Shown: piece by piece, positions 87 through 29,718 of the stretch
Layout of the letters: each line of letters opens with the position of its first letter
Numbering within the stretch: the stretch's first letter is position 1
Virus record (IMG/VR): IMGVR_UViG_3300033141_000881
Coordinates: 1-37,728 of that record
Origin: a virus
Strand: one strand, 5' to 3'
DNA: 37,728 bases
Notes under the pieces: generated by a model
What the model was told of the DNA's origin: nothing
Seen by the model: only the letters and a program-made list of their open reading frames with translations
Database searches by the model: none
Position numbers and translations under genes: made by a program

Positions 87-632
87 ATGAGCGGGCATAA
101 GGACGAAGGCCTGGATCTGCTGGGTCCCGACGCCCCGGACGACGCCGGGCTGCTTATGGGCGACCTCGACTTCATAGCACCAGACGAAGTAAAGCACAAC
201 ACGGCGGCCCTGCGTAAGTGGCGCGAGGTAACAAAAATATTTAAAGAGGCGGGGCTTACCGTCGTAAGCTCTACGGACTGCGGGGTTATCGGTCGGTACT
301 GCATGTTATACGCTGAATACTGGGCGCTGCTCAAAGAGCGTAAAGCTATAAGCGACTTTGAGCTGCCAGACGACGATATGCAGGAGATAATGGCTATCAC
401 AGAGTTTGTATATGAGCGTGATCGGGGGCGTCGTCTATGGGGCGTCGTTGAATACTTTACCAGGTTAAAGGGGTTACTGGAATTGGACCGGGCTATCAAC
501 GCAAAACAGAAGGCGATCCTCGATGTAGAGGACCGTATATTTTTAAATCCGGCGGCGAAAGCCCGGAAGCTGGCTATAAAAAAGAGAGCTGCGAAGGTGG
601 ACCCGCTCGAAAAACTAGGGTTTAAAGTATGA
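87..632 (+). CDS. terS: Terminase small subunit, P27 family
   Basis: Predicted small terminase, the DNA-recognition subunit that selects the phage genome for packaging and recruits the large subunit. The 181-residue protein has the length and mostly helical composition of P27-type small terminases, with a central segment (about residues 45-95) resembling their conserved core around a Leu-Thr-Val-Val and Cys-Gly-Val-Ile-Gly-Arg-Tyr stretch. The ATG at 87 has an AGGGGG ribosome binding site a few bases upstream. The stop overlaps the large terminase start by 4 bases, and an HNH nuclease lies upstream at the other end of the window if the genome is circular; HNH-terS-terL is a usual order in HK97-like phages. 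The family call rests on both resemblance and position. Confidence 0.85.
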   Translation: MSGHKDEGLDLLGPDAPDDAGLLMGDLDFIAPDEVKHNTAALRKWREVTKIFKEAGLTVVSSTDCGVIGRYCMLYAEYWALLKERKAISDFELPDDDMQEIMAITEFVYERDRGRRLWGVVEYFTRLKGLLELDRAINAKQKAILDVEDRIFLNPAAKARKLAIKKRAAKVDPLEKLGFKV

Positions 633-24294: not shown

Positions 24295-26286
24295 TTATTT
24301 TTTATACCTATGGGCCTCGTAGCCGTCGGCTGCAATCGGTAGGCCTTCGGCCCAGTCCGGTATCGTTTCCATTATGTCGTTAAAAATGTCTATACCTAGT
24401 AGCGGGTGTATAGGCGTATCGGCTACTATTTCATCATGGACCGTTAAGACTATCGGATAGCCCGCGGCCTCTATAGCTATCATCTTATCGGCCATACAGT
24501 CCATAGCTACGGCCTGGGTAATATTCTCTACGAGCTTGCCGCCATAGGTCCGCTGCCGGGTATACTTCCGGGTCACAGAGTTAACGCCCAGGTACTCGAT
24601 TTGCTGCCGGTCGAAAGAACCGTCGACCAGGCGGGGCCTATGGTAAGCTATACGCCGACCGCTCGGCAGGTAGCAAAATAAAAAGGAAGTCGCGCCGGAG
24701 CCCTGGACTTTATAGGCTACCTTTCGGATCCGCTGGACGGTCCCAGGATTAGCGACGGCCTTAACCGCTGCGGCCTCTATATTAGACCAGAAAGATGTTA
24801 TCTTAGGGTTTCCGAGTCTCCAGTTTTTTATAAGTACCTTCGCCTCTTCGTCTGGAATTACCACGCCGTACACTTCGGCAAATTGCCGGAAGGCTCCGAC
24901 GCCGCCTTGGTATCCGCAGGCTAACTCGATAACCTTACCGATTTGGCGCTGCTCTTTATTAACGGCGTCGTAATCTATTTTATAAGCGGCGACTGCGTTA
25001 ACCTTATATATGTCGAGCTGGTCCTGGTAGGCTATGAGCTTATCGATAGCGCCCGCGAGCCAGGCCAGGACCCGGCTTTCTATTTGTGAAAAGTCGCTTA
25101 CTACCAGACGGTTACCTGGAGCCGCGCACATCATACCCCGCAGGCAGCGGCTAACGGCTTCCAGGCACTCGCCGAAAAGCATTTCTATAACTCCGGGGTC
25201 CTGGTATTTCAGCAGCTCTATACATAGGTCTGGCAGGTCCAGGGATTTACGCGGGAGGTTTTGGGGTTGGAATAAATTACCAGACCAGCGCCCGGTCGAA
25301 GCCCCGTGAAAACGCAGCAGCCCGTAGGCCCTGCTCGTATCGTCGACTATGCCCTGGAGTTTATCGTATTTCGCGAGGCTACTTTTCGATACTTCCAGGC
25401 GTAATTTAATAAGGTTCATAGCGTCCGGGTTTTCGCCGGTCTCTTCCAGCTCGATTACTTTTCTCTTAAGGTATTCTTTACGCGCGTTTTCAAGTGTGTA
25501 GCCTATCGTCTCCATGTATTCCATGAATTGATTGCGGCTGCTTATGTTATCTAATACCCCGCAAGTCTGCTCGGCTATCTTTTCCAGGGCGATAGCTTTA
25601 GCTTTGCCTATAGTTATCAGGGCGTTATTAACGGCCTGCATATCGAAGTATACACCGCGTAAATTTATAGCTCGGTCGAGTTCCCATAATTTCCGGGTCC
25701 TGGGCTGCAAGTCCGGGAGCATTTTATCGATACTACGCTCGGCGATAACATCCTGGATACAATACTTTTTAAATTTTTCAAATTCTGCGGGTAAATCTTT
25801 AGGGTAGGTCCGTATGTATAGCCCGCGCGTTTCTTTTTTCGTACTCTTTTTAGGCTTTGAAAATATTTGTATTAGCCGCTTTCCTTCTTTACTCTTTGCG
25901 GCGTCGGAGTCCAGGCCGAGCGCTTGCCCGCAGCCTTCCAGCGTACGCGGGAGCGATAGCGCGGCGGCTTTGGCTCCGGTATCGGCCCAGTATTTCGGAT
26001 CGGGTAAGGGCCACTTTAAAACGTTAGCCCACATACATACCTCAAAAAAATCATTCCAGGCGGTTATCTGAAAGGGTAGCTCTTCGCGATTTTCGTTAGC
26101 CTTTACTATATCCCATACCCAGGCGGGTACGTCGTAGCTCGGTAACCATATAACCGGCGGGTCGTCGTCGAAGGCCCAGGCCAGCATAAGAACCTCAGTC
26201 GATGGGTGTTTGGAATACGCCCACGGGCCGACCGTCCGCAGGTCCGCCCTGCTATACGTTTCATAATCTATGCGTAATTTATCCAT
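24295..26286 (-). CDS. polA: Family A DNA polymerase with 3'-5' exonuclease
   Basis: Phage replicative DNA polymerase of the Pol I type, 663 residues. The exonuclease domain has IDYETYS (Asp7, Glu9), AWNDFFE (about 76-82) and YCIQDVIAE (Asp179). The polymerase domain has motif A SDFSQIESRVLAWLAG (Asp398), motif B RQIGKVIELACGYQGGVGAF (Lys451), and motif C TVHDEI (His617-Asp-Glu619). The motif B with GYQGG, instead of the FGxxYG of bacterial Pol I, is usual in phage PolA of the DUF2815/DUF2800 module. It overlaps the methyltransferase stop by 8 bases. It copies DNA primed by the primase on the other strand's operon. Confidence 0.93.
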   Translation of the reverse strand: MDKLRIDYETYSRADLRTVGPWAYSKHPSTEVLMLAWAFDDDPPVIWLPSYDVPAWVWDIVKANENREELPFQITAWNDFFEVCMWANVLKWPLPDPKYWADTGAKAAALSLPRTLEGCGQALGLDSDAAKSKEGKRLIQIFSKPKKSTKKETRGLYIRTYPKDLPAEFEKFKKYCIQDVIAERSIDKMLPDLQPRTRKLWELDRAINLRGVYFDMQAVNNALITIGKAKAIALEKIAEQTCGVLDNISSRNQFMEYMETIGYTLENARKEYLKRKVIELEETGENPDAMNLIKLRLEVSKSSLAKYDKLQGIVDDTSRAYGLLRFHGASTGRWSGNLFQPQNLPRKSLDLPDLCIELLKYQDPGVIEMLFGECLEAVSRCLRGMMCAAPGNRLVVSDFSQIESRVLAWLAGAIDKLIAYQDQLDIYKVNAVAAYKIDYDAVNKEQRQIGKVIELACGYQGGVGAFRQFAEVYGVVIPDEEAKVLIKNWRLGNPKITSFWSNIEAAAVKAVANPGTVQRIRKVAYKVQGSGATSFLFCYLPSGRRIAYHRPRLVDGSFDRQQIEYLGVNSVTRKYTRQRTYGGKLVENITQAVAMDCMADKMIAIEAAGYPIVLTVHDEIVADTPIHPLLGIDIFNDIMETIPDWAEGLPIAADGYEAHRYKK

Positions 26287-27094
26287 ATAGTAAGTATAGA
26301 TTCTTAAATATGTGGGCGATAACGTCGACCGTCCAGCCGTTGCCCAGCATCTTATACCGCTGGGTATTGCTTACGCCCTCGGTATAACCGTCGGGTACTG
26401 TTTGTAAGCGCTCACATTCTAAAGGTGTTAGCCAGCGGGTGGTATCGTCGGTTATCCAGGCTATAGGCCGCTGACTTCTTTTAAATTGTCGCTGCCGGGT
26501 TTCTTCACTACCTTTTTTATAGTATGTAGCTGTGAGAGCGAAGGCTTTATACATACGGGCCTCGTCGCTTTCGAGTACATCCTGGAAAAGTACGCCCTTA
26601 TCCTGCGGCTGCTTAATGTCGGGAATATCCGACCAATACATACGGCTACGATTTTGCCCGCTTACCAGGCTGGAATTTATAGCCGTAGGGTTAACGCCCA
26701 TCTGTATAGTGATAGCGTTTAGCCATTCTTTTTTCATGAATACATTTTCTAGCAGAAAAAAGTAGGGGTCGAAGTGTTCCAGGCACGCTACATAATACCA
26801 GAATAAAGCGCTTCGGGGGTCGTCGAAATTTTTCCTTTTTAGTCTGGACCCGGCAACGCTAAAACCCTGGCAGGGACTCCCGCCTATAACCAAATCAATT
26901 TTTGGTAACGCCCAGCCCTTATAATTTTCTACCGGGCCGAGTTGTATATTATCCGGGTAGTTTTCGCCAGCTATGTGTATGGCGTATTTATCTATCTCAG
27001 AGGCGAAATAGTTATCGACTTTTATACCGGCTCGCTCCAAGGCTATACGCCCGCAGCTCATACCGTCGAAAAGGCTTAGTACATTTATTCCCAT
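26279..27094 (-). CDS. C5 cytosine DNA methyltransferase
   Basis: Makes 5-methylcytosine, probably to protect phage DNA from host restriction. Read from the ATG at 27094 it has 271 residues and all main motifs: NVLSLFDGMSCGRIAL (I), GGSPCQGFS with catalytic Cys75 (IV), FLLENV (VI), SGQNRSRMYW (VIII), LTPLECERLQTVPDGYT (IX) and MLGNGWTVDVIAHIF (X). A GTG at 27148 would add 18 residues unrelated to the family and is not used. The target-recognition region between VIII and IX is short, so the target site cannot be predicted. It lies between the SSB-like gene and the polymerase. Confidence 0.92.
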   Translation of the reverse strand: MGINVLSLFDGMSCGRIALERAGIKVDNYFASEIDKYAIHIAGENYPDNIQLGPVENYKGWALPKIDLVIGGSPCQGFSVAGSRLKRKNFDDPRSALFWYYVACLEHFDPYFFLLENVFMKKEWLNAITIQMGVNPTAINSSLVSGQNRSRMYWSDIPDIKQPQDKGVLFQDVLESDEARMYKAFALTATYYKKGSEETRQRQFKRSQRPIAWITDDTTRWLTPLECERLQTVPDGYTEGVSNTQRYKMLGNGWTVDVIAHIFKNLYLLYG

Positions 27095-27180
27095 TATTAC
27101 CAGCGTTAAGTTAAACCGCCGAGGGACAGGTAAGTAACAACCTGACACCCCGGCAGCCGAGGAGCGCTCAAGGAAAAGCG

Positions 27181-27789
27181 TTAACCGAGTAGGTTGTCCT
27201 CGTCTTCGATACCGGCGGCTACGTCTATATTTAAGTCGTCTATAGCTACATCGTCGTCCAGGGAGTCGAAGCCGTCCATAGCCTCTTCCGGGGAAACGTA
27301 GGAACCGTCGAAGCTATCGGCGGCTTTGGGTATATACTGAACGGCCAACAGTTTAGCGTTAACACGCCGCCCGAAGTCGTTAGCCTGTCCCCATATGTCG
27401 ACTTTGATATTTACATAGCAACCACTATATATCTTATCGGTCTCCTCTGTCATAAGGGTTTTACTGTCCGGCTCAAGTACGACCGGGGCTCGGGGATTGC
27501 CTGCTTTTAATATCAAGTTATCCGGTTTATATAATAGTTCTTCCTGGTCCGCTTCTGGTCTGCGTAAACAGATGTTATCGGCTTTTGGCGGTTTAGCCGT
27601 AAGCTTTTGGTTACCGGCTATAGCCGATTTCATTCGGGATTGTATCGCCTTTATAATTTCGGCGTGTTTTTTTCTCTCAAGTATTACCGTTATACCGGGG
27701 TTGAATGTTTTACCGTTCTTAACTTCCGAGCCGTATAGCTGAGGAAAAGAACAGCGGACATCTTTTATTATTAAGTGTTGTTTATCCAT
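27181..27789 (-). CDS. SSB-like protein, DUF2815
   Basis: Predicted single-stranded DNA-binding protein of the DUF2815 family found in phage replication modules. The 202-residue protein starts with IIKDVRCSFPQLYGSE, contains TFNPGITVILERKKHAEII, and GCYVNIKVDIWGQANDFGRRVNAKLLAVQYI, typical OB-fold strands. It ends in a long acidic tail (SLDDDVAIDDLN ... EDEDNLLG) like the protein-interaction tip of bacterial SSB. The closing DNLLG resembles DDLLG motifs in its two upstream neighbours. The RBS is AAAGGAT. Adjacent to the DUF2800 nuclease gene, as usual for this pair. Confidence 0.88.
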   Translation of the reverse strand: MDKQHLIIKDVRCSFPQLYGSEVKNGKTFNPGITVILERKKHAEIIKAIQSRMKSAIAGNQKLTAKPPKADNICLRRPEADQEELLYKPDNLILKAGNPRAPVVLEPDSKTLMTEETDKIYSGCYVNIKVDIWGQANDFGRRVNAKLLAVQYIPKAADSFDGSYVSPEEAMDGFDSLDDDVAIDDLNIDVAAGIEDEDNLLG

Positions 27790-27830
27790 AATATTTTATC
27801 CTTTATTTTGTGGTTATCTGTTTCATTAGT

Positions 27831-29150
27831 TTATCCTAGTAGGTCGTCGGCGTCGCCTAACAAGTCGTCGAAGTCGTCGGCCTGTACTGAGTCGTCTATT
27901 ACAATTTTCTCGGGTCCTGGGGGCCGGTGTATAGCTGAAAGCTCAAGCTTTTTATACCTGCGCGTCGCTTCCCTCGGCCTAATTTCTTTTATAATCTTTT
28001 CGGCCTGCGTGGGTGATATGATTTTAATTAGCTCGTAGTGCTTTTTCTGGAGCCCTGCGGTCCTCATATGTTTAATGGTTTCCTCTTCGTCTAGCTTCCA
28101 GGACCTAGGCTTTATGGTATCGATAAGCTTAAGGCCTGGGACTAGCTCGCCGTTAAGTATACGGCTGCGTATCTCGTCGTCCAGCTCAGCAGCGAAACGC
28201 AAAAAGACGGCCATAGCTTTATAAGCTGCGGCTATGTCGGCGTTATCCATAAGCATCGGGTCCTTAATAGTACTGTTAGATACTTCTATACTCGGAAGAT
28301 CGGCCTGCGCCTCGGCTGTAAGGTCCTCGAAGCCGTCGACCGCGGCCTCGTAGCCTTTAGTAGCCAGTGCCTTACAGCGCTTATGCTTTTTACCGTCGCA
28401 CCACTGACAGCCCTTTTCGGTCGGGTTAAAATGTTCAGGCTTTAAAATGTTCTTGCTGGTCGCCATAACCATCTCAAATAGATTATACGCAAGATTCGCT
28501 TTCGGCTTTATCTTTTCTTCCCAGGCTTTGAGGCCTTCGACACTGATTTCATACTCGTCTATATTATCCATACGTGGTTGTGCTATGACAACAATGACGC
28601 GCTCTATGTCCCGCTCGAAAAGCATTTCGAGAGAGTTAAGCGCCCCGGAGCCGTAACATAGACCTTGGCTGTTTTCAAAAGCCGCTACCTTAACGCCTTT
28701 ACCATATTTGAAATCGATTACGTATAGCGTGTTAACGCGTTTATCTACGGCGACCTTTTCGTATACCTCTAAAACTATATCCGCAGTCCCAAAACCGTTA
28801 GGCGCGATATGACTATAGTCTACTTTCTCCTCGTAAAAAGCGTTACGGGCCTGGAGCCTTTCAACGTATTCAATGGTTACCTCTACGGCGTCGACCATAT
28901 CCTGCGTGACTTCGACCATGATCTCGCTTTCGCCCCCCTGGTCAACTGGGATAACTGTATTAAGGTATTTTGTAGGGGCGTTATTTAGGCTCAGACACAT
29001 TTCGAGTACTTCGTGCGCTGCCGTACCTTCGGCGGTCCACGGGCTCCCCTCGTCGGGTATATCGATTAGCGCCTCTAAGGCCAGAGCGCCGGGGCAGGCG
29101 AGCCATTTAGCCGACCCCGAAGCGCTTAGCGTGGCGTGTTTGTTAGGCAT
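27831..29150 (-). CDS. DUF2800 protein, RecB/Cas4-like nuclease
   Basis: 439-residue protein of the DUF2800 family, a PD-(D/E)XK exonuclease thought to act in phage recombination. It starts with HATLSASGSAKWLACPGA and AEGTAAHEV (active-site His), then GFGTADIV and YVIDFKYGKGV (Asp and Lys), and a Gln/Tyr helix (ENSQGLCYGSGAL). A cysteine set CQWCDGKKHKRCKAL near residue 240 follows, as in Cas4/RecB-like nucleases. The C-terminus has two copies of DDLLG (DDFDDLLGDADDLLG). It overlaps the preceding gene's stop by 8 bases and is followed by the SSB-like gene. Confidence 0.9.
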   Translation of the reverse strand: MPNKHATLSASGSAKWLACPGALALEALIDIPDEGSPWTAEGTAAHEVLEMCLSLNNAPTKYLNTVIPVDQGGESEIMVEVTQDMVDAVEVTIEYVERLQARNAFYEEKVDYSHIAPNGFGTADIVLEVYEKVAVDKRVNTLYVIDFKYGKGVKVAAFENSQGLCYGSGALNSLEMLFERDIERVIVVIAQPRMDNIDEYEISVEGLKAWEEKIKPKANLAYNLFEMVMATSKNILKPEHFNPTEKGCQWCDGKKHKRCKALATKGYEAAVDGFEDLTAEAQADLPSIEVSNSTIKDPMLMDNADIAAAYKAMAVFLRFAAELDDEIRSRILNGELVPGLKLIDTIKPRSWKLDEEETIKHMRTAGLQKKHYELIKIISPTQAEKIIKEIRPREATRRYKKLELSAIHRPPGPEKIVIDDSVQADDFDDLLGDADDLLG

Positions 29151-29718
29151 CTTTAAGAGCCTTTTCTGCCGCTGCGTAGGCCTCGCCGTATTTCTCGGGG
29201 CTCATTTCCGGGAGCCGCCGGACGCCCAGCTCGCCGAGTATTTCTTTAGTAACTTCTTTACCGAGCTTTTCGTGGTTATTGATTTCGAGCAGCTTAGCCT
29301 TAACGTCGTCCAGGGTACGCTCTTCGGGCGCGTCGGCGGGGTCACCGCCCAGCAAGTCGTCGTCGTCGGTTTTTTTCTCCAGGCGTTCCTTAACGCTTTC
29401 CATAAATTTCTCCAAGGCGTCTTCGTCTTTTAGCTCGGGGAAGGTCTTAACGCCTGCGGCTTTAAGCAACTCAGCTAGTACCTTCTTACCTAATTCTTTG
29501 AGAGCCTTTGCGGCTACGAGCTTCGCCGCTTTTTTCTTTTCGGCGAGGTCCTTTTTATCGGCTTTTTTATTTGGGGCCGCTTTATTGGTCTTCCCGGCTT
29601 TGCCGCCCCCACGCTCGCCCCTACTATTAGCTTCCATAGCTCCCAGTACGATTGCATTTATATAGTCGACGAGTACGACGGTTAACGCGTTGGCTTTTCC
29701 TTCAATTATTCCTGACAT
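29143..29718 (-). CDS. Replication-module protein with duplicated helical domain
   Basis: First gene of the - strand operon, 191 residues, not matched to a known family. It has a basic Lys/Ala/Gly-rich linker (about 33-65), then two related ~45-residue helical units: residues ~70-115 (LGKKVLAELLKAAGVKTFPE) and ~140-190 (LGKEVTKEILGELGVRRLPE), each followed by an acidic helix. Between them is DDDDLLGGD. The organisation (tandem small domain, acidic LLG peptide in the linker) suggests a scaffolding or SSB-partner role. The start ATG has an AACAGGAG site and a promoter about 50 bases upstream. Confidence 0.7.
   Translation of the reverse strand: MSGIIEGKANALTVVLVDYINAIVLGAMEANSRGERGGGKAGKTNKAAPNKKADKKDLAEKKKAAKLVAAKALKELGKKVLAELLKAAGVKTFPELKDEDALEKFMESVKERLEKKTDDDDLLGGDPADAPEERTLDDVKAKLLEINNHEKLGKEVTKEILGELGVRRLPEMSPEKYGEAYAAAEKALKDA

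Follow-up and report, generated by a model that had tools for sequence, protein, structure and literature searches.

Acidic DDLLG-type peptides on the SSB, the DUF2800 nuclease and a putative replication protein of a phage operon: a candidate shared docking tag

The principle of acidic docking tails on single-stranded DNA-binding proteins (SSBs) and on the T7 helicase is already known. The bacterial SSB carries an acidic tip with a hydrophobic end (DDDIPF) and serves as a hub for genome maintenance, as described in PMC10164576 and PMC5928155, and the last six residues of the phage HK620 SSB recruit Sak4, so that in this case the tip of a phage SSB brings in a recombination protein (PMC5928155). 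In phage T7, the acidic tails of gp4 and gp2.5 act on the gp5 polymerase (PMC12593628, PMC8472574, PMC5686142). Besides, duf2800-gp2.5-polA has been presented as a phage gene module (PMC8093625), and structures 5ODJ, 5ODK and 5ODL represent the ORF6 SSB of phage Enc34.

The locus described here resembles the T7 system in that several replication proteins of one phage have acidic disordered C-terminal tails, such a tail being common to at least two replication proteins in the window (the whole 37,728-base stretch of DNA analyzed, a virus record from IMG/VR) and in its relatives, and in that the SSB has the gp2.5 fold. It differs from T7 in its tagged partners, which are a PD-(D/E)XK nuclease and the product of the first operon gene (gene A), in having one internal copy and in a receptor that stands at the level of a candidate; moreover, the proteins of one phage agree in a specific peptide motif, which varies from phage to phage. 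Whereas in bacteria the SSB has the tip and its partners have the pockets, in the window phage the partners carry copies of the tip, and the SSB ends in NLLG instead of Pro-Phe. The three genes of the published module occur here in the same order, but the window adds gene A in front and a methyltransferase before the polymerase, and the accessible text of PMC8093625 makes no mention of shared tails. The Enc34 SSB, of the same family as the window SSB, also has an acidic tail, which ends in DEDEV compared with DNLLG; the available text of PMC5686142 does not speak of this tail being shared with ORF3, ORF5 or the primase. In the open-access literature searched we found neither a tag common to SSB, DUF2800 nuclease, gene A, primase and terminase nor a description of last residues changing in concert, and there is a substantial chance that the phage-wide form of the tag described below exceeds a variant of known docking tails.

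The operon, whose genes and peptides are given by window coordinates, lies on the minus strand and runs from gene A through the DUF2800 nuclease, the SSB, a C5 methyltransferase and a family-A polymerase (PolA) to small genes, thus constituting a duf2800-gp2.5-polA module preceded by gene A. The nuclease (27831..29150, 439 aa) matches PF10926 with E 1e-65 and 222.7 bits, above the cut-off of 21, as well as phrog_69 (exonuclease); DUF2800 nuclease matches were found in 1,526 of 50,697 phage records. Its residues D124, D146, K148, C19, C248, C251 and C259 were invariant in 11 aligned sequences, and we take the first three to be the PD-(D/E)XK catalytic core and the four cysteines to be a Cas4-like Fe-S site. 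The next gene (27181..27789, 202 aa) is predicted, from both sequence and model, to encode an Enc34/gp2.5-type ssDNA-binding protein: it matches PF10991 (DUF2815; E 2e-17, 64 bits against a cut-off of 26) and PDB entry 5odj (E 4e-11), and its AlphaFold2 model has an OB fold like those of 5odj (E 9.5e-12) and T7 gp2.5 (1je5, E 7e-6). The alignments used for structure prediction left out rows from the named-phage collection and some later loci. Neither the methyltransferase (26279..27148; PF00145, E 5e-42), which lies between SSB and PolA, nor PolA itself (24295..26286; PF00476, E 2e-21; phrog_17) carries the tag; PolA is a candidate hub and has the conserved C-terminal end YKK(D). After the small genes come a small nuclease-like protein (23358-23014) and an SNF2-like helicase (23017-21428), both identified from their location and their resemblance to named phages, LP.1 among them.

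Gene A (29143..29718, 191 aa) consists of an N-terminal helix and two small helical domains with a disordered acidic linker between them; in the AlphaFold2 model the pLDDT falls below 50 at residues 123-129, and both flanking helical domains are confident. Homologues sit upstream of DUF2800 in many phages and most of them match PHROG 3709, 408 or 18562, though the window protein matched none of these families. Gene A also gave no Pfam family above cut-off and, as a lone query, no match among the named phages. The fold search with its whole model returned nothing with E <0.001 and no clear PDB match, while a second structure aligner returned generic small helical bundles alone (Z <=6.4). Gene A is called here a putative replication protein.

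An earlier note on this DNA had reported a D(D/N)LLG peptide in these three consecutive proteins, and all four copies are present. The gene A copy, DDDDLLG (29347..29367), falls between the two domains as the note had said, in the linker that the model predicts to be disordered; the nuclease has DDLLG twice at its end (27855..27869, overlapping the aromatic element DDFDD, and 27834..27848, its final five residues); and the SSB closes with EDNLLG, strictly D-N rather than D-D, of which DNLLG (27184..27198) forms the final five residues. The copies lie where the note had put them, except that its interval breaks off 6 nt before the gene A motif is complete. The SSB tail reads IEDEDNLLG, an acidic tail with a hydrophobic end, and upstream of it lies a proximal aromatic element, MDGFDSL (residues 171-177, 27259..27279), whose F174 is invariant or nearly so in the alignments. 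The tail and tag peptides of the window are DDFDDLLGDADDLLG, EDEDNLLG and TDDDDLLGG. Among 75 open frames of at least 100 aa, counted in all frames, the motif [DE][DEN]LLG occurs in just these three. Shuffling of the whole proteins gave probabilities of 0.0094, 0.0054 and 0.0033, the product of which (about 2e-7) is post hoc, since the pattern was picked afterwards, and conservation is for that reason the stronger argument. Two further sequences were considered as copies and set aside because they are not conserved in relatives: the tag-like DEGLDLLG near the N-terminal end of a small-terminase-like protein (window positions 87-632), which begins MSGHKDEGLDLLGPDAPDDAGLLMGD, and the primase end ...LIGGLL.

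Five near relatives were found by scans with alignment queries (L092, L093, L172, L326 and L327); viral contigs searched with gene A or the nuclease as a single-sequence query had yielded none. The earlier note had counted loss of the tails in relatives against its proposal, and the tag is kept in gene A of all five and, slightly altered, on their nuclease and SSB. Their gene A proteins are about 30-47% identical, and DDLL[GN] is the sole linker segment common to gene A of the window and the relatives, while the nuclease and SSB copies find their counterparts at the protein ends. Taken in the order gene A linker, nuclease end and SSB end, the window has DDDDLLG, DDLLG-DADDLLG and EDNLLG; L092 has DDDDLLG, IDDLLS and TDDLLA; L093 has ADDLLN, LDDLLS and GDDLLS; L326 has GDDLLG, VENLLD and PDDLLG; and L172 has DDDDLLG, FDLLE and GDPLLD. 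L327 combines DDDDLLG in the linker with two DDLLS copies in the nuclease and three tandem DDLLG copies in the SSB, the latter near-identical at the DNA level. Three more distant modules retain acidic-hydrophobic nuclease and SSB ends (FSFLD and DDFLN in L173, LSFLD and DDLPF in L329, LNFLN and TDFLD in L399) together with a gene A that lacks the motif. Within the called open frames of the relatives, the tag appears outside gene A, nuclease and SSB only on a single small protein of G002, which ends in DDIDDLLS, and on another of G004, which ends in DYDDLLS, in each case with the DDLLS of the nuclease of the same phage. Two such small proteins in relatives of the window phage, unrelated to each other, lie at L487:15613-15831 (72 aa) and L493:1254-1448 (64 aa). 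The ends of the primase and of the SNF2 protein are neither tagged nor conserved in the window clade. One in-frame TAG was seen inside a primase homologue match (G005:C1:31236-33509).

The wider survey comprised 366 DUF2800-SSB modules, or 283 once nuclease cores at least 85% identical had been removed. Acidic-plus-hydrophobic ends were found on 220 SSBs and 146 nucleases, and on both proteins in 126 modules. In a comparison of 61 representatives, one for each nuclease clade at <45% identity, the tail of the nuclease scored 3.61 against its own SSB tail and 1.69 against those of other phages (p=0.0002, a value limited by representatives that are not fully independent). Of the difference of 1.91, 0.92 remained once the residue order of the SSB tails had been shuffled, which puts about half of the tail similarity down to composition. 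At nuclease identities of 60-90%, own tails were no closer than the tails of cousins, as slow change of the tails would lead one to expect. Two elements can be told apart in the SSB tail, a proximal aromatic one ([D/A][D/A][F/Y/W][D/E]) and a terminal acidic-hydrophobic one, and the nuclease may copy either or both. Examples are the staphylococcal phage phiSa2wa (AEDDFDKL at the nuclease end, AEDDFDEL...DDEDFL in the SSB), Enc34 (GAYDDEDEDDDEV in the nuclease, DAYDEDEDEWDEDEV in the SSB) and the Aeromonas phage pAEv1812 (YWDDSDF...GYWDDDEI and YWDEDDF...GWEDDDEI, respectively). The type of aromatic residue agreed between nuclease and SSB (F in both in 170 cases, W or Y in both in 8, discordant in 8; Fisher p=6e-9, uncorrected for kinship). 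In other lineages (L008, L135, L449 and L459) gene A has a matching tail at its C-terminal end, and four of the five SSB-end residues were found inside gene A 14 times in 262 modules, compared with 4.1 expected (maximum of 11 in 200 permutations); since several of these 14 matches are clearly due to chance, tagging of gene A is restricted to particular lineages. Nuclease and SSB tails were also alike in modules with no PolA within 5 kb downstream, one of them with a weakly family-B-like polymerase. Such a polymerase occupies the PolA position of this module in a marine phage (L006:6317-8086), and an unassigned protein of similar size occupies it in the marine phages L334 and L066.

In the cultured Casjensviridae, the sequences indicate that the tag is phage-wide and that its last residue changes in concert. 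Nine proteins of Salmonella phage Chi (L474, L481) end in acidic residues followed by V, namely the primase, gene A, nuclease, SSB, small terminase, gp18, gp42, an RdgC-like protein and gp62, and Enc34 (L473, L483) has the same V set. Eleven proteins of pAEv1812 (L478, L482) end in acidic residues followed by I, including the primase, gene A, nuclease, SSB, helicase, small terminase, RdgC, a methyltransferase and an exoribonuclease, while the corresponding L end was found on six proteins of MA11 (L496): primase, gene A, nuclease, SSB, helicase and small terminase. Phobos has an LI end on gene A, nuclease, SSB and helicase, and the ends in pPM_01 are mixed. When last residues were permuted within orthologue groups of Chi, pAEv1812 and MA11, 7 of 200,000 permutations were equally concordant, the groups having been picked after the pattern was noticed. 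A tagged helicase or primase is thus a feature of Chi (primase), pAEv1812 and MA11 and not of the window clade.

Judging from these sequence patterns, DDLLG, the terminal element of the acidic SSB tail, probably serves as a short linear docking motif in disordered protein that the nuclease and gene A carry as well and that would address one receptor, because the peptide is common to non-homologous neighbours, occurs in tandem, is allowed in a linker and changes in concert. Its presence, its conservation, the predicted disorder of the gene A linker, the within-phage covariation and the phage-specific last residues are observed; that it docks on a protein, and the choice of that protein, we infer. 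The interpretation of the earlier note stood in part: the shared docking tag is upheld by a peptide that is conserved, tandem in one relative and covarying within phages, and of the possible hubs that it had named, polymerase and helicase, the polymerase is one of two candidates here. The SSB, nuclease and gene A product would compete for, or gather on, one receptor, and the nuclease and gene A product could be recruited in this way to DNA covered by the SSB, either at the fork or in the course of recombination. As receptor we put the SSB body first, slightly favoured over the polymerase, although with less than an even chance of being right. The SSB is at least as good a hub candidate because sharing persists without a neighbouring PolA and because of the Enc34 crystal, in which, according to PMC5686142, the final eleven residues cannot be seen and the end of the tail that can be seen inserts in the concave beta-sheet groove of a neighbouring SSB. 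By residue count, this visible end would be TSDAYD, the proximal element. The nuclease also copies the element that would lie in the groove, which would let it dock on the SSB body. The same paper reports that the Enc34 SSB lacking its last 21 residues also binds double-stranded DNA (PMC5686142). More tentatively, tailed phages with the gene A-DUF2800-gp2.5 module may each place a phage-specific tag, with last residues that change in concert, on the SSB tail and on up to about eleven unrelated proteins (among them nuclease, gene A, primase, helicase, small terminase, RdgC and methyltransferase), read by one co-evolving receptor pocket within one replication, recombination and packaging assembly.

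Some observations weigh against a docking motif with one receptor. The gene A copy is internal in the window clade, where a free C-terminus cannot be required, and the tag is absent from gene A of L173, L329 and L399. For the T7 tail, polymerase and primase-helicase are known targets, and a T7-like arrangement, in which the tags dock on basic patches of PolA and gather SSB, nuclease and gene A (joined by primase and helicase in Casjensviridae), is the strongest rival, albeit on balance an unlikely one. It has the T7 precedent, and PolA lies in the same module and was without a tag in every module inspected by eye, its conserved end being mostly Y[KR]KD, which fits a receptor; yet tails are also shared where PolA is missing within 5 kb downstream, at least once beside a family-B-like polymerase. 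Hydrophobic-ended acidic tails are common in SSBs, so the likeness may be partly convergent. An improbable proposal has no common receptor at all, with independent acidic, disordered tails, serving as DNA mimics, for solubility or in autoinhibition, made alike by convergence and lineage composition. The usual acidity of SSB tails, the portion of the own-versus-other signal that outlasts shuffling and the lack of signal among close relatives speak for this proposal, but exact DDLLG-type peptides, tandem copies, the internal gene A copy and a concerted V, I or L over 6-11 non-homologous proteins are unexpected from composition.

It appears still less probable that a factor for quality control or sorting, from host or phage, such as a protease adaptor or a pocket for the C-terminal carboxylate, reads the tag in place of the replisome and, for instance, stabilizes or co-regulates early proteins. 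The tagged sets of Chi and pAEv1812 do extend beyond the replisome (small terminase, PAPS reductase, methyltransferase, exoribonuclease), but window-clade tags are almost limited to gene A, nuclease and SSB, internal copies exist, and most structural proteins have no tag. Spread of the peptide among neighbouring genes by recent gene conversion or DNA copying is very improbable. The tandem copies in the L327 SSB, near-identical in DNA, speak for it, but for the window it was rejected from the codons: as the earlier note had stated, the Leu pairs differ in all four copies (TTG CTG, TTG TTA, CTA CTA and CTA CTC) and the likeness is at the protein level, at which diverged relatives also share the peptide.

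If the shared docking tag is real, it would reveal from sequence alone the members of a replication assembly, including gene A, and would give the widespread DUF2800 nuclease a route to SSB-coated DNA. Moreover, the coevolution of receptor and ligand would be testable in culturable phages (Chi, Enc34 and BPP-1). Among other named phages, jat and Jersey (L477, L480) have a protein in the SSB position that ends in a basic run and a nuclease without a hydrophobic end, which looks like loss of the tag in both. In Sphingomonas phage Carli (L499), the primase ends in LDLTGL, the small terminase and a hypothetical protein in LDLDGL and the SSB in LDDL, possibly another phage-wide tag.
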